The position numbers and the translations under genes were made by a program. Below the pieces are notes generated by a model. The model did no database searches, was not told the origin of the DNA, and saw only the letters and a program-made list of their open reading frames with translations. A stretch of 64,000 nt of DNA from Domibacillus indicus (GTDB taxonomy: Bacteria; Bacillota; Bacilli; Bacillales; Domibacillaceae): NCBI RefSeq assembly GCF_023715895.1, contig NZ_JAMBOO010000004.1, positions 310,001-374,000 on the forward strand, written 5' to 3'. The first letter of the stretch is position 1. Each line of letters starts with the position of its first letter. Shown one piece after another: positions 34,468 through 57,529 of this stretch.

Positions 34468-34505
34468 GCTTAATTAAGGGGAAAAAAGAAAGGATGGATT
34501 TCTTT

Positions 34506-35921
34506 ATGACAAAACAGCAAATTGGCGTAATCGGTCTTGCCGTAATGGGTAAAAACCTGGCGCTTAATATCGAAAGCAGAGGCTACTCAGTAGCAGTTTT
34601 TAACCGTTCTGCAGATAAAACGACCGCTTTCCTTCAGGAAGAAGCACAAGGCAAAAACTTCAAAGGCGCATACAGCGTAGAAGAATTTGTAAACTCACTT
34701 GAAAAACCGCGCAAAATTTTGCTCATGGTAAAAGCGGGTGCAGCAACAGATGCAACGATTGATTCTTTGAAGCCATACCTGGACAAAGGCGATATCATCA
34801 TTGATGGCGGAAACACGTTCTTCCAGGACACGGTACGCCGCAACAAAGAGCTTGCCGGCCTTGGCTTTAACTTTGTCGGCACAGGCGTATCCGGCGGTGA
34901 AGAAGGAGCGCTAAAAGGGCCTTCTATCATGCCAGGCGGACAGCGTGAAGCATTTGAACTTGTTCGCCCAATCTTTGAAGCGATCGCAGCAAAAGTAGAC
35001 GGTGAAGCATGTACTACATACATCGGTCCAGACGGCGCCGGCCATTATGTGAAAATGGTGCACAACGGCATCGAGTACGGCGATATGCAGCTGATCTCAG
35101 AAGCATACTTTATCTTGAAGCATGTAATCGGCCTGTCAACAGAAGAGCTTGCTGATACATTTGCTGAGTGGAACAAAGGCGAGCTTGACAGCTACCTGAT
35201 TGAAATCACAGCGGACATCTTCACGAAGAAAGATGACGAAACAGGCAAGGCGCTTGTAGACGTGATTTTAGACGCAGCCGGCCAAAAAGGAACAGGCAAA
35301 TGGACGAGCCAAAACGCGCTTGACCTTGGCGTTCCGCTTCCAATCATCACAGAATCTGTTTTCGCACGCTTTATTTCTGCCCTGAAAGAAGAGCGCGTAG
35401 AAGCAAGCAAGCAATTGAGCGGCCCTTCTCCGAAGGAAGTGGATTCAGATCAAAAGAAAGAATTGATCGAAGCAGTCCGCCAGGCGCTTTACATGAGCAA
35501 AATCTGCTCATACGCACAAGGTTTTGCACAAATGAAAGCTGCATCAGAAGAGTACGAATGGAACCTTCGCTACGGCGACATCGCGATGATCTTCCGCGGT
35601 GGCTGCATTATCCGTGCGCAGTTCCTTCAAAAAATCAAAGAAGCGTTCGACCGCAACGCAGAGCTTCCAAACCTGCTGCTGGACGAATACTTCAAAGATA
35701 TCGTTCAAAATTACCAGACGTCGCTTCGTAAAGTCGTATCTCTTGCGATCGAAGCCGGTATCCCGGTTCCATCTTTCGCGAGCGCTGTAGCATACTACGA
35801 CAGCTACCGCACAGAAACACTGCCTGCGAACTTGATTCAAGCGCAGCGTGACTACTTCGGTGCGCATACGTACAAGCGTATTGACAAAGAAGGCACATTC
35901 CACACTGAGTGGATGAAATAA
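34506..35921 (+). CDS. gndA: 6-phosphogluconate dehydrogenase, decarboxylating
   Basis: 471 residues from ATG 34506; the ATG at 34494 sits too close to AAAGG. The NADP-binding site [15 protein letters not shown], the [11 protein letters not shown] substrate loop, the catalytic Lys in [18 protein letters not shown] and the C-terminal FGAHTY region are complete. It oxidises 6-phosphogluconate to ribulose 5-phosphate in the pentose phosphate pathway. It is a metabolic gene placed among surface polymer genes. Confidence 0.95.
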
Positions 35922-35984: not shown

Positions 35985-36117
35985 GGGCCGGAAAATAAAA
36001 ATTTGGGCCGGAAAATAAAAATTTGGGCCGGAAAAATACCTGCCAGGGCCGGAAAAGAAGGATTCCGGCCCTGACCGATGAAAATCCGGCCTAAATGAAA
36101 AAATTCCGGCCCAAAAA
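35985..36117 (+). repeat. Palindromic repeat array 1 (GCCGGAAAA units, 20-21 bp period)
   Basis: Four forward GCCGG units start at 35987, 36007, 36027 and 36048. Three inverted CCGGC units start at 36065, 36086 and 36106. Most are embedded in GGGCCGGAAAA or its complement. Spacing is 20, 20, 21 then 21, 20 bases. Because the two halves mirror each other, the array can fold into one long interrupted hairpin with an apical CAGGGCCGGAA/TTCCGGCCCTG stem. Confidence 0.9.
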
Positions 36118-36196: not shown

Positions 36197-37126
36197 ATGA
36201 GAAAATCGATTTTACACGCAAAGTTAATGGCGCTGGATAATCGCCTGATCCGGCCAAGAAAAGAAGTAAAAGAAGAGCTGGCAAGATGCGAGGCTGGTTT
36301 GGAAGGAGAAAGAAAATTGCTGTATTACCTATCCGAAATCGAAGGCTCTGCCAGAGTTCTTCATGATATACGCCTTCCTTTTTCCACGGGTTATACCCAT
36401 CTCCAAATGGATACCGTCGTAATTACACAGCAAATGATCTTCATTTTGGACGCCAAGCATTTTAGCGGACGCCTTGTTTTCGACCGTTTAACGAGGCAGC
36501 TGAGAAGAGGAAATGTCACATATAATGACCCCATTACACAGGTGGTTCGCCACAAGCGCGGATTAGAGCAGTGGCTGGATCAGCCAATCCCTATTATGGC
36601 TGCGGTCGTGCTAACCCACCCAAACGTCCGCATAGAAATCACTCCTCCGGATGCCTTTGATCATTCACTCATCCTCTATGCGCAGGAAATCCCCGCAAAA
36701 GTCCACGATTTTCTTCAGGATAAACAAACCATTTTAACCAAACCGCAAGTATACAAAATCGCCAGTGAGCTTGAACGGCACAACAAGCCCTATGATCCGG
36801 ATATCATGAAACAATTTCAGATTGAGCTTGGACACCTTTATACCGGCATCCAATGCCCGTATTGCCGATGCTGGTCGGTTGAACGCGTAAAAAGAAGATG
36901 GCTCTGCCGAAAGTGCAGCACTTCTTTAAAAAACCCGCATCTCCCGGCTTTGAAAGAATATGTGCGGCTGTTCGGCACAAAAGCGGTGAACAAACAAATC
37001 AGAGCCTTTACGGGCATCCAATCAGAATCAGTTGTTAAAAAATTATTGAGAAAGTGGGCCGTTGAAAAGAACGGAGATACAAAAGGGAGAGTATATCATC
37101 TGCCGGAAGAATGGAAATGGGAATAA
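36197..37126 (+). CDS. NERD-domain protein with zinc ribbon
   Basis: 309 residues. An N-terminal nuclease-related (NERD) domain (about 30-140) has GLEGERKLL, LHDIRLP, QMDTVVITQQMIFILDAKHFSG; the last Asp-x-Lys fits the restriction-endonuclease-like fold. A zinc ribbon follows (CPYC near 220, CRKC near 237) and a basic helical C-terminus (about 250-309) that could bind DNA. NERD proteins are linked to DNA processing, with no proven role in Bacillus. AAAGGAGAGAG precedes the ATG. Repeat arrays lie on both sides within 80 bases upstream and 16 bases downstream. Confidence 0.8.
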   Translation: MRKSILHAKLMALDNRLIRPRKEVKEELARCEAGLEGERKLLYYLSEIEGSARVLHDIRLPFSTGYTHLQMDTVVITQQMIFILDAKHFSGRLVFDRLTRQLRRGNVTYNDPITQVVRHKRGLEQWLDQPIPIMAAVVLTHPNVRIEITPPDAFDHSLILYAQEIPAKVHDFLQDKQTILTKPQVYKIASELERHNKPYDPDIMKQFQIELGHLYTGIQCPYCRCWSVERVKRRWLCRKCSTSLKNPHLPALKEYVRLFGTKAVNKQIRAFTGIQSESVVKKLLRKWAVEKNGDTKGRVYHLPEEWKWE

Positions 37127-37141
37127 ACTATGCAGTCTTGA

Positions 37142-37252
37142 GCCGGAAAAAAGAAGTTTGGGCCGGAAAATAACTCGCTTGAGCCGGAAAAAGAAAATAC
37201 CGGCCCTGGCAGACCAAAATCCGGCCCAAATGAAAAGTTTCCGGCCCAAACA
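37142..37252 (+). repeat. Palindromic repeat array 2 (GCCGGAAAA units, 20-21 bp period)
   Basis: Three forward GCCGG units start at 37142, 37162 and 37183. Three inverted CCGGC units start at 37200, 37221 and 37241. Spacing is 20, 21, then 21, 20. The unit sequence and layout are those of array 1. It lies between the convergent NERD and glycosyltransferase genes. Confidence 0.9.
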
Positions 37253-37284
37253 TGAAAAAAGCCTCCCATTAAAGGGAAGCTTTA
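37252..37284 (-). terminator. Terminator of the csaB-glycosyltransferase operon
   Basis: On the minus strand AGCTTCCC and GGGAGGCT form a stem followed by TTTTTTC. It abuts array 2. Confidence 0.8.
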
Positions 37285-38435
37285 TAAATCGACTCGTATT
37301 TTTCGGCAGCTGCCGTATGTGAGTACTCATCTTCAATTTTTTTCCGGGCAGCCGCCGCATACTGGGCGCCTTTTTCCGGATGATCCAGCAATTCGATCAT
37401 CGCGTCAGATAATTCTTCAACGTTTTTCTCTTCAACGAGGAGTCCATCGACGCCGTGGTTCACGATTTCTTTTAACCCGCCGACTGCGCAGGCGATCAAT
37501 GGTGAGCCGGAGCCCATCGCTTCAAGAGCCGAAATCGAAGTGGCTTCTTCTACACCGGCCGAGAATACGCTCGGTACAAGCACCACATCAGCCAATGCGT
37601 AATATTCTTTAATGACACTATGATCGACGGCACCAAGTAAGTGCACATTTTTCTCAATGCCGCGCTCTGCGATCAGGCGCTTCATTTCGTCCATCGCTTC
37701 ACCGGTTCCGGCAAAAATCAGCTGAGCGTTCGGGTATTTCTCCAGTACCGGCGGGAACGAAAGAATCGGATAAATAACCCCGTTTTTCTTTGTTAAGCGG
37801 CGCGGTACGAAGAAAACAGGCGCTGTTGCATCCACGCCGTGCTTCTGGCGGTAAGCCGCTTTGTTCTCGGAATCCGGTTTAAAGTCATCGACATTAATGA
37901 AGTTGCGGATCGCCGTTCCATCAATGCCGGCTTCTTTTTTTACGTAATTTTTAATACGGGTATCTACGGTAATGACCGCGCGTGTTTTCCGGTAGCCTTC
38001 ACGCTCGACTTCCATCAGCTTGTCCGCATGCTTCGAGCCTTCTGCGACCGAGCCTTTGGAAATCCCTTCATACGTTAAGTAGCCATGAACAGTTGTAACG
38101 GTCGGTAAGCCTGCATTAATAGAAGCGCGCGTCGCGAACACATCCTGCGCATTGACGATATCATACTTCGGGCAGTCCGGGCGCTTCAGCATTTCTTCTA
38201 GAAAAGCCTGGCGGCGCTCCAGCGTCCACACATAGCCGGCGCCAAGAGATGCTTTGTTTAAAAGAAATGATGGGCCGCGTGCGATAAAGTCACGCTTCCA
38301 TTTCGGCACATCGCTAAAAGACAGCGTATCAACCTCATGGCCGCGTGCTTCAAGGCCAATTTTCAATGTCGCCATATGCGTCGACAATCCGCCAAGATGC
38401 GGGTAATCATACGAAGTAGCAAGTAAAATTTTCAC
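37269..38435 (-). CDS. Family 4 glycosyltransferase
   Basis: 388 residues, GT-B fold. N-terminal SYDYPHLGGLSTHMATL is the acceptor-side glycine loop; the C-terminal half has FVPRRLTKKNGVIYPILSF and EATSISALEAMGSGSPLIACAVGGLKEI in segments, the EX7E-type donor site. It would add a sugar to the lipid-linked polymer precursor in the cytoplasm. It starts 2 bases after csaB ends, so the two form an operon. Donor and acceptor cannot be told from sequence. Confidence 0.88.
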   Translation of the reverse strand: MKILLATSYDYPHLGGLSTHMATLKIGLEARGHEVDTLSFSDVPKWKRDFIARGPSFLLNKASLGAGYVWTLERRQAFLEEMLKRPDCPKYDIVNAQDVFATRASINAGLPTVTTVHGYLTYEGISKGSVAEGSKHADKLMEVEREGYRKTRAVITVDTRIKNYVKKEAGIDGTAIRNFINVDDFKPDSENKAAYRQKHGVDATAPVFFVPRRLTKKNGVIYPILSFPPVLEKYPNAQLIFAGTGEAMDEMKRLIAERGIEKNVHLLGAVDHSVIKEYYALADVVLVPSVFSAGVEEATSISALEAMGSGSPLIACAVGGLKEIVNHGVDGLLVEEKNVEELSDAMIELLDHPEKGAQYAAAARKKIEDEYSHTAAAEKYESIYKASL

Positions 38436-54561: not shown

Positions 54562-54594
54562 AGAGGGCGTCTTTAAGACAGCCCTCTTTTTTAT
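54559..54594 (+). terminator. Terminator of the helicase operon
   Basis: AAAGAGGGC and GCCCTCTTT flank a 12-base loop and end in T. Confidence 0.9.
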
Positions 54595-54722
54595 GGCCGG
54601 AAAAAGCGGATCAGGGCCGGATTATCGTCCGTAATGGCCGGAAAAAAGAGAATCCGGCCATCCTGCAAGCTTTTCCGACCCATATTTTTATTTTCCGGCC
54701 CAAACAAGGAGGTTTTCGGTCC
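54595..54722 (+). repeat. Palindromic repeat array 3 (GCCGGAAAA units, 20-21 bp period)
   Basis: Forward GCCGG units start at 54596, 54616 and 54637. Inverted CCGGC-type units start at 54654, 54675 (CCGAC), 54695 and a degenerate one near 54716 (TTTTCGGTCCC). Spacing is 20, 21, then 21, 20, 21. It fills the gap between the helicase terminator and the convergent SLH-CAP gene. Confidence 0.88.
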
Positions 54723-55734: not shown

Positions 55735-55888
55735 TTTATTCCCTCCGTTTCTTGTTTATGTATTATCCTATAAAACAATACCCCGTCCCATGAATTTGTA
55801 AAAGTCAACCAGTTCATAAATCAGCGATATTCCGGTTGTTTTTTTCGTTTATCTATTTCATTTTATAAGAAATCTGCCGATAAACCTG

Positions 55889-55972
55889 TTAGGGTACAGC
55901 CGTAGAAATGCGGTGCCACAAAGCTACAGGGGCTAAAGCGGTAAGCCAGGCCAGCCAGCTGCCATGCCCTAA
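55889..55972 (+). promoter_or_regulatory. Likely c-di-GMP-I (GEMM) class riboswitch
   Basis: Outer stem TTAGGG (55889-55894) pairs with CCCTAA (55967-55972). Inside, CCGTA-GAAA-TGCGG (55900-55913) is a stem with a GNRA tetraloop, followed by CACAAAGCTACAGGGGCTAA and, near the 3' side, GCCAGCTGCC. This resembles the GEMM-I consensus (GNRA-capped P2, GACGCAAAGC junction, GGUUGCC-like 3' part). It ends shortly before the ribosome binding site of the SLH gene at 55994. The closely related cGAMP-binding variant cannot be excluded. Confidence 0.6.
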
Positions 55973-55993: not shown

Positions 55994-57529
55994 ATGAAGA
56001 AAAAATGGACATCAGCCGTTGCAGCCGTGCTTGCAGCAGGCGTTATGTTTTCAGGAGAAGGAATCACGTTTGCAGCCCAGGCGGAGAGCACGCCGTACAA
56101 CGTGCTTGCGAGCAAAAAAGAAAATCAGGGACAAGCGCAGCAATTTAAATCAATTGATAAGCAGCTCGATAAAATCGAAGAAAAGCTGCTTCAATACAAA
56201 GAGAAAATGAACCAAATCAAGGAAGAAGAAAAGCAAGAGGAAAGCGATGAAACGGAAGCCGTTGTTCAGCCGGTAATGCCAACACCGACAGAAACACCAG
56301 CAGAAGAGCAGACACCAGCTTCAGATGAAACCGTGACAACAAGCGCTGATTCCGTTGAAGAAACAGAAACAGACAGCGATGACGATTCAACGGTAGAAGA
56401 AGGAACAGAAGAAGAACAGGTAGAAAAAGACCTTGAAGGTCAGCCAGGCTACCGCGGGAAGTTCGGCGCACTCGAAAACCGTTTGAACGCTGTTTCCAAG
56501 CAGGTCGCATCTCTTGCGTCAAAAGGAGCAGATGCAGCAGCAGTAGCGGAAAGACAAGCCCGCATTGATTCCTTAAAGAAGAACGTAGCAGCGGTTCTTG
56601 CATCCATCGGCCAAATTGAAAAAGAGGTTCAAGCGGAAATCAAAGCGGATAAAACCGTGAAGGAAAAAGCAGCGAAAAAAGGCGTCGCGCTGACAAAGAG
56701 CTGGACAATCAAGTTCAGCAAAAGCCTGGATGCAGACACATTGTCTACACTGGACCTTGTTGTGATGGATGCAGCGGGAAGCCTTGTAGAAACAACCTTT
56801 ACGTATTCCGACAAAACAAAATCAATCACGCTGACTCCGCTTCAGCCATACCAAAAAGGCGTAACATACACGCTTTACATCGGTAAAGGCATTGAAGGCG
56901 CAAACGGCATACCGCTCAAACACACGGTAAAAATGGATTTCACAACGACAACCGGCACAACCGCTGCGGCAAGCATCAAAGCAGCTGGGTTTTCTGATGT
57001 GTCGGACCGCTACCAGGAAGCAGTGCAGGCAATGGTCGACCAGGGGATTACATCCGGTGTTGGCGGTGGTAAGTTTGGCATCGATCAGCAAATTAAACGG
57101 GTTGATGCAGCTGTGATGCTGGCAAAAGCATTAAAGCTTGAGACAGGTTCTGCGCCAAGTGCAGGATTTAAAGACGTGCCAAAACGTGCGCAGGCAGCAG
57201 TCAACGCGCTTGTAAAAGCGGGCATTCTTTCCGGCAAAACAGCGACAACGTTTGGTGCCGACCAAACATTGACACGTGGGGAACTGGCGATTATTTTAAC
57301 GCGTGCGCTTAAACTGTCAGGGGATTCCACAACACTTGCATTTAAGGATGTGCCGGCACGCTATGAAGCGGCCGTGAAAGCGATGGTTGCCAACGGCATT
57401 ACAAACGGCAAAACAGCGACCGCTTTCGGCACAACGGATCCGGTTAAACGCGGCGACTTTGCGGTGTTCTTCCATAGAGCGCAGCAGCAGCCAGCGATCC
57501 AGGATTTAGAAGTAGTCGATATTTATTAA
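55994..57529 (+). CDS. SLH protein with coiled-coil, acidic region and Ig-like domain
   Basis: 511 residues, AAGGAGGAA upstream. Signal peptide (1-28), coiled-coil (about 50-80), an acidic Glu/Thr/Asp-rich stretch (about 80-150), a second helical region (about 155-230), a Big_5-like Ig domain (about 230-320) and three C-terminal SLH domains (about 330-500; KRVDAA, TRGELA, KRGDFA). The SLH set is close to that of the main S-layer protein but at the opposite end of the chain. Possibly a surface stalk or adhesin under riboswitch control. Confidence 0.85.
   Translation: MKKKWTSAVAAVLAAGVMFSGEGITFAAQAESTPYNVLASKKENQGQAQQFKSIDKQLDKIEEKLLQYKEKMNQIKEEEKQEESDETEAVVQPVMPTPTETPAEEQTPASDETVTTSADSVEETETDSDDDSTVEEGTEEEQVEKDLEGQPGYRGKFGALENRLNAVSKQVASLASKGADAAAVAERQARIDSLKKNVAAVLASIGQIEKEVQAEIKADKTVKEKAAKKGVALTKSWTIKFSKSLDADTLSTLDLVVMDAAGSLVETTFTYSDKTKSITLTPLQPYQKGVTYTLYIGKGIEGANGIPLKHTVKMDFTTTTGTTAAASIKAAGFSDVSDRYQEAVQAMVDQGITSGVGGGKFGIDQQIKRVDAAVMLAKALKLETGSAPSAGFKDVPKRAQAAVNALVKAGILSGKTATTFGADQTLTRGELAIILTRALKLSGDSTTLAFKDVPARYEAAVKAMVANGITNGKTATAFGTTDPVKRGDFAVFFHRAQQQPAIQDLEVVDIY

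Follow-up and report, generated by a model that had tools for sequence, protein, structure and literature searches.

Phased intergenic repeat arrays accompany NERD-domain genes in Domibacillus and other Bacilli and are candidate recognition sites of predicted nucleases

Described repeat systems and the array locus of Domibacillus indicus

STAR, BOX, bcr and other Gram-positive intergenic repeats are short repeats dispersed between genes; we know of no NERD link and no two-turn mirror geometry among them. The sites of the site-specific DNA-binding proteins in the MatP/matS and parS/parC systems are regionally clustered, and MatP and ParB/ParR are not nuclease-domain proteins. Iteron systems have private specificity. 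PMC6090056 describes six 12-mers with a spacing of 10 or 11 bp in the V. cholerae ori2, and PMC2817692 describes RAYT/REP systems (REPtron, REPIN), in which a nuclease-type gene is flanked by its own repeats, relatives of these repeats are dispersed between genes, and the repeat sequence is gene-specific.

The arrays reported below share these three features with RAYT/REP, which is the closest system in logic, and come closest to iterons in geometry; they belong to neither, failing a tested defining feature. Unlike RAYT/REP, with its Y1 HUH enzyme (Transposase_17) and its single imperfect palindrome with a GT(A/G)G head, the accompanying protein is matched above the Pfam cut-off by NERD (PF08378) alone, the units are mostly non-palindromic 8-mers, and they stand in arrays of 3 to over 30 units phased at 20/21 bp. 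As in the iterons of plasmid and chromid Rep proteins, head-to-tail sites recur roughly every two helical turns next to the gene of the presumed reader protein, whereas the NERD protein is no Rep initiator and the arrays are chromosomal and at many places; no origin function was seen for them, many sites lying away from dnaA. Regional clustering is shared with MatP/matS and parS/parC, from which the arrays differ in that several unit systems coexist. No description of NERD genes with such arrays was found in open-access PMC texts, and the three arrays belong to a large bacterial system, apparently undescribed, in which genes for a nuclease-like protein have private repeat arrays.

The window, a stretch of 64,000 nucleotides from D. 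indicus (NZ_JAMBOO010000004.1, positions 310,001 to 374,000), contains three unstranded arrays of the unit GGCCGGA(A/T), a few copies of which are mutated, arranged in mirrored halves. Array 1 (35986..36111) has four forward GGCCGGAA units (20, 20 and 21 bp apart) and three inverted units (21 and 20 bp apart), with forward GCCGGA at 35987, 36007, 36027 and 36048 and inverted TCCGGC at 36064, 36085 and 36105 in the unit scan. Arrays 2 (37141..37246) and 3 (54595..54700) each have three forward and three inverted units. In array 2, spaced 20, 21, 16, 21 and 20 bp, the forward units are at 37142, 37162 and 37183, and the inverted half consists of one ACCGGC followed by units at 37220 and 37240; array 3, a dispersed array 17 kb from the NERD gene, has forward units at 54596, 54616 and 54637, and inverted units at 54653 and 54694 with a mutated TCCGAC between them. 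The preliminary description had given three or four forward units followed by three or four inverted ones, which stands for the forward halves (4, 3 and 3) and has to be corrected for the inverted halves, which always number three and never four; its spacing of 20 or 21 bp between unit starts is true within every half, and the 16 bp spacing across the centre had gone unmentioned. When arrays 1 to 3 are aligned, their three possible helices share one register. The window contains 11 copies of the 9-mer GCCGGAAAA where 1.1 would be expected, and none of 100 shuffles reached 11. A c-di-GMP-I riboswitch (Rfam RF01051, 57.3 bits) also lies in the window at 55883-55966, just upstream of the ORF 55994-57529.

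That arrays 1 and 2 flank a gene for a nuclease-domain protein had been missed in the preliminary description and proved to be the key to the system. The gene (36197..37126, plus strand, 309 aa) was assigned by Pfam PF08378 (E 3.5e-16, residues 34-140, 60.1 bits against a curated cut-off of 22.1) and by orthologues in the same setting. The NERD nuclease-related domain (36296..36616, plus strand) contains E38, D72, D85-x-K87 and Q101; in 17 aligned sequences E38, D72, K87 and Q101 do not vary and either D or E occupies position 85. These are putative active-site residues of the PD-(D/E)xK type. Farther along the plus strand lie the zinc-ribbon cysteines C220, C223, C237 and C240 (36854..36916), invariant in 17 aligned sequences and in a part with weak likeness to ribosomal L37Ae (E 0.015), and a C-terminal HTH-like region (residues about 248-292, 36938..37072), which is recognised by its conservation, has no Pfam match and is presumed to be the unit-reading domain; a structure model, which shows three helices there and has a mean pLDDT of 37.7, is unusable. 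In six orthologues (L258-L263) the residue that follows the presumed recognition helix, at position 285, varies in parallel with the unit: R accompanies GGCCGGA, G accompanies GGGCGGT and Q accompanies CGCCGRT. A known defence identity of the protein was considered and rejected, the only matches being weak ones to the MAD6 (34 bits, cut-off 460) and PglW models, as was a phage origin, the array DNA and the NERD protein having no match in phage records and none being confirmed in viral contigs.

The left neighbour of the locus is a 6-phosphogluconate dehydrogenase gene (gnd, 34494..35921, plus strand, assigned by Pfam), and the right neighbour is a glycosyltransferase gene (37269..38435, minus strand), at whose place G011 has an ORF of the same size. 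ORF translations identified a gnd-like ORF adjoining the NERD locus in G001, G003, G006 and G011, and the order gnd, array, NERD, array is conserved in these four genomes and in D. indicus, the unit in G001 and G003 differing from that of D. indicus, G006 and G011. In the one gene-less version of the locus that was compared, G008 (L118 9343-9448), the NERD gene is gone and one hybrid array joins the left flank of array 1 to the right flank of array 2, an arrangement that would most simply be explained by deletion or recombination between the two flanking arrays.

The array family in Domibacillus and the nature of its units

A covariance model (R1) built from eight D. indicus copies of the mirrored GGCCGGA form detected 15 array places in the D. 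indicus genome at E<=0.1, every place being matched on both strands (30 rows in all); the place on contig C66 is doubtful by eye. With stricter filters, R1 matched 11 of the 61 genomes searched, all from one genus (11 of its 12 members, D. indicus counted), and none of the 49 genomes outside it; this null result sets no limit on the system, because the model represents the mirrored GGCCGGA form and the filters were stricter. The arrays are part of a Domibacillus family with up to dozens of copies per genome. Few or no arrays were found in two Domibacillus genomes: G009 yielded one R1 match and has a distant NERD gene without an adjoining array, and G004 had no NERD match, no R1 match and no array in the 100 kb sampled. 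Single-unit hits in L008 and L009 appeared genic and were dropped as arrays; L009 1400-1650 (contig C95 of D. indicus) is a long tandem repeat of about 90 bp that contains TTCCGGCC and is apparently coding, not an array. A decayed array was seen at L011 1464-1545 (D. indicus contig C126, 64 kb), with its last inverted unit, by eye, inside the loop of an intrinsic-terminator-like hairpin.

The geometry was also searched without regard to the unit, in 1.05 Mb of DNA of the genus picked around earlier hits. The six-unit mirror 20,21,16,21,20 was found at 76 places with a score >=36, and a single mono-nucleotide shuffle of that DNA gave none with such a score. A grid of geometries had its maximum at an outer spacing of 20 and an inner spacing of 21 (79 places). 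Wider geometries and a few further loci brought the collection to 96 elements. The exact spacing 20,21,16,21,20 is that of 52 elements, and one (L084 9436) resembles a shifted register between two neighbours; many of the high-GC matches among those listed in a contig-wide mirror scan were chance mirrors. The units vary by species (GGCCGGA, GGGCGGT, GACCGGA, CGCCGRT and GGCGCAAT) while the geometry is constant. GGCCGGA or GGCCGAA predominate in G000, G006, G008, G010 and G011, and GGGCGGT in G001 and G003, alongside some GGCCGG forms; the unit is CGCCG(A/G)(T/A)A in G005 and GACCGGA in G007, and the 20 elements listed for G002 fall into three classes, GACCGGA (n = 10), CGCCGRTA-like (n = 8) and GGCGCAAT (n = 2). 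A fourth NERD paralog of G002, itself a Domibacillus genome, carries long, unmirrored direct GTGTGCAA arrays (L291 16600-18200), and the mirror form may therefore follow the NERD clade and not the genus.

Mirrored halves could form hairpins, and the preliminary description had proposed a long hairpin or structured RNA; the arrays might then be structured RNAs, or hairpins at gene 3' ends that terminate transcription or protect mRNA. Arrays 1 to 3 do fold strongly on both strands (z-scores -3.9 to -9.5), and few elements lie in divergent gaps, with 41 in convergent, 43 in tandem and 2 in divergent gaps (84 of 86 classed elements in the first two), against 70 convergent, 206 tandem and 93 divergent gaps (276 vs 93) among all gaps >=130 bp of the same DNA, those of the arrays included; seven further elements overlap a short predicted ORF and three lie at edges, by crude ORF calls. 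The centre of array 1 is terminator-like on the minus strand (36075-36042) and may act in termination from that side. Within arrays 1 and 2 the terminator scan scored two short stems as well; it placed further terminator-like hairpins separate from, and beside, these two arrays and found none around array 3; by eye, a hairpin with a T run is present near array 3, at about 54562-54595.

The hairpin explanation is very unlikely. Among 72 elements, mirrored partner units match at 6.685 of 8 bases and the five other arm pairings at 6.59-6.68, a difference per element of 0.056 +- 0.049 of 8, and no excess of compensatory change was found between paired arms for mirrored partners. Pairing outside the units (59 elements) exceeds expectation mainly 1-5 bases beside the innermost unit, with z 2.0-5.0 at five positions, and elsewhere at single positions only (z 2.1-2.3), the linkers otherwise pairing near chance. 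No Rfam match at gathering score was obtained at the window arrays, and many relatives of the system have direct arrays, which are unable to fold in this way. Since mirrored partners are no more alike than other units and there is little extra pairing, each unit behaves, for the most part, as a separate copy of the motif.

When orthologous arrays of three close species were compared, in three pairs that have one array (L114) in common, changes were seen at 6/144 positions within units and at 24/172 within linkers (p 0.003), their alignable flanks (36/238) having changed about as much as the linkers; in the pair L016/L116 the units were not slower (2/48 vs 3/59). Taken with the equal likeness of mirrored and other partners, the slower change of units than of linkers makes the units appear to be sites of phased protein binding, not parts of a conserved hairpin. 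The proposal of phased protein binding on one helix face is strengthened in the same way, the geometry staying constant while the unit changes. A-tract bending was rejected, the units of several relatives lacking A-tracts.

Phased arrays beside NERD genes across genomes

Association between NERD genes and arrays was measured by a phased-array score, taken for the best 8-mer at 20/21/41/42-bp phasing in 1.3-kb flanks, with each site counted once and a threshold of >=9. This score was reached at 24 of 36 discovery loci and 1 of 54 control tiles. Once the idea had been formed, it was also reached at 7/18 additional paralogs from genomes seen before, 16/18 NERD loci in seven unseen genomes of one family, 9/25 NERD loci of a class-wide sample that was likewise unseen, and 2/4 extra paralogs. 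Without merging of sites found on both strands, the counts for the unseen family and the class-wide loci were 16/18 and 10/25. Under a strict criterion, by which off-phase distances must yield less than half of the score, the five counts were 24/36, 7/18, 13/18, 8/25 and 2/4, with 0/54 for the control. Pooled unseen genomes gave 25/43 against 1/54 (p 1e-10), or 21/43 against 0/54 under the strict criterion (p 1e-9). The remaining loci of the five sets (12/36, 11/18, 2/18, 16/25 and 2/4) scored below 9, and NERD matches at E<=1e-20 were present in 23 of 151 class-wide genomes. The link between NERD genes and phased arrays is thus strong and general, not universal.

Outside Domibacillus, the DNA next to 22 NERD loci contains equal 8-mers at intervals of 20-21, 40-42 and 61-63 bp, with repeat distances of 20 (n = 74), 21 (n = 310), 41 (n = 624), 42 (n = 484) and 63 (n = 206) and few elsewhere, most of these counts being supplied by a handful of long arrays. 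At 18 chosen array loci, 436 of the 533 unit-to-unit distances of <=70 bp are 20 or 21. Arrays stand on both sides of the gene in D. indicus and at many other loci, and on one side only at some.

Different array-bearing NERD paralogs go with different repeat units. Among 29 array-bearing NERD loci of 11 genomes, 51 of 54 cross-comparisons were zero (mean 0.19, maximum 6, the maximum coming from two G002 words that overlap in sequence), as compared with own-flank values of 9 or more, which are high by construction. The 56 cross-comparisons of a previous set of 22 loci had a mean of 0.14 and a maximum of 5. Close orthologues have units in common, with GGCTCAAG in three genomes (proteins 80% identical), GAAGTTAC in two and CGCCTGAA in two. 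The 16 protein pairs that are >=60% identical share 6.1 of 8 unit bases and more distant pairs about 4, the overall correlation between unit likeness and protein likeness being weak (Spearman 0.13).

These observations bear on a further explanation, that the arrays are ordinary minisatellites generated by slippage and only coincidentally linked to NERD. Units are indeed gained and lost in 20-bp steps (the orthologue of array 3 in G008 has one unit more on the left and one fewer inside), and higher-order repeats exist, but a single period with different units in many families, beside one gene family and far above control, together with paralog-specific units that change more slowly, makes this extremely improbable.

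Correspondence between arrays and genes is incomplete in some genomes. Arrays are present in G008, where no match to NERD reached E<=1e-10. GGCCGGA arrays occur in G010, yet its single NERD match carries TGGCGCAA arrays; therefore arrays outlive, or do without, their gene. For GACCGGA, the unit of 10 of the 20 elements listed in G002, no NERD gene with exactly that unit adjoining was found, the nearest unit being GACCGGTA. In G024, the 1.3-kb flanks of the second NERD gene contain no array belonging to it, and an array of TAGACCGA, the unit of the other gene, lies 1.4 kb from this second gene.

Dispersal of the arrays and the proposed system

Dispersed arrays cluster near their genes. In D. 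indicus, 9 of the 15 array places are on contig C126, which holds the NERD gene and represents 8% of the genome, and in G024 an exact search placed 39 of 40 two-unit hits on one 571-kb contig, within about 210 kb holding both NERD genes. The complete chromosomes of G017 and G058, which start at dnaA, have many dispersed units in an exact two-unit search, with many sites away from dnaA; of 33 dispersed places, the half of the chromosome around the cognate gene contains 26 (p 0.0007) and the origin half 24 (p 0.014), counts in which neighbouring places are not independent (three lie within 20 kb in G058). Clustering is not clear for one G058 unit with just three dispersed places. A search with the G017 unit gave no hits in G019, which has no NERD match, or in G021 and G022, where NERD genes are present, and three in G013.

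Such clustering, seen in G024, G017, D. indicus and, for one unit, G058, would also be expected if the arrays were chromosome-domain organiser sites in the manner of MatP/matS, bound by NERD proteins for host segregation or repair and not for their own spread. This is unlikely, given that several independent unit systems occupy one chromosome, that NERD genes occur in so few class-wide genomes, and that arrays have been copied into unrelated flanks.

This copying is apparent from the linkers. Array pairs sharing linkers above a shuffled control numbered 26/36 in G003, 33/91 in G001, 41/171 in G006, 40/190 in G002, 11/45 in D. indicus and 7/36 in G011, a sharing that may partly reflect position-specific composition. 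The earlier statement that linkers differ while units are kept is accordingly borne out for the slower change of units and contradicted by the many within-genome pairs with linkers in common; the idea that the linkers of each copy are unique was discarded. On different contigs of G003, the arrays L103 9175 and L106 9713 are 0.84 alike, linkers included, with flanks at 0.53 and 0.45, and two L140 arrays are 0.88 alike; the 60-bp flanks of the L140 and L103/L106 pairs are at 0.45-0.57, which by our estimate is about the value for unrelated DNA in such gapped alignments. Some array pairs of G006 and G001 have flank in common too. Because linkers and units are shared while flanks are unmatched, at least some arrays have been copied as units, and the suggestion of a non-autonomous mobile element, made in the preliminary description, gains support.

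The arrays might accordingly be MITE-like elements moved by another enzyme, with NERD as a passenger and the phasing marking transposase sites at both ends. The mirror symmetry resembles joined transposon ends, and the copy numbers, the shared linkers and the L103/L106 pair fit such an origin. Weighing against it, no identical array copies were found (maximum likeness 0.89), several arrays have orthologues in other species, those elsewhere form long tandems in direct orientation, part of the linker sharing is perhaps compositional, and both the NERD link and the paralog-specific units are left unexplained, so that we regard this origin as improbable, about on a par with the organiser sites, the two being the chief rivals of the reading that follows.

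The best reading of the sequence comparisons is that these are recognition arrays of predicted site-specific NERD nucleases, with which they would spread. Probably, the arrays serve as platforms on which the NERD-zinc ribbon-HTH protein of the adjoining gene recognises multiple sites. The HTH-like tail would read a unit of about 8 bp, and the 20/21-bp spacing would set successive protomers on one face of the DNA, allowing cooperative binding. More speculatively, the PD-(D/E)xK domain might nick or cut DNA at or near the filled array, and unequal exchange or gene conversion during repair might expand arrays by 20-21-bp steps, keep their units alike while the specificity of the protein drifts, and seed new arrays. 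Cutting and repair at the arrays are suggested by the nuclease domain, the 20-bp unit steps, the concerted change of units, the copying and the regional spread. Nuclease and repeats could then form a self-maintaining system, comparable to REP/RAYT and with a different chemistry.

As for purpose, selfish or semi-selfish spread is given not quite an even chance, an estimate that the evidence of array copying raised; host chromosome organisation or repair seems unlikely, titration or autoregulation somewhat more so, and defence and any other purpose would each have only a slight chance. On a broader scale, the chance is less than even, though not small, that Bacilli harbour an unrecognised class of NERD-HTH nucleases with private DNA codes that bind, cut, build, homogenise and spread phased arrays, nuclease specificity and code co-evolving and several codes occurring per genome.

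With these arrays, a widespread nuclease-like domain gains testable candidate DNA targets, and the many natural pairs of protein and unit would let specificity change be read out. They offer a possible explanation for the phased intergenic repeats of these genomes, and may represent, in Bacilli, a selfish or chromosome-organising system of a new kind.
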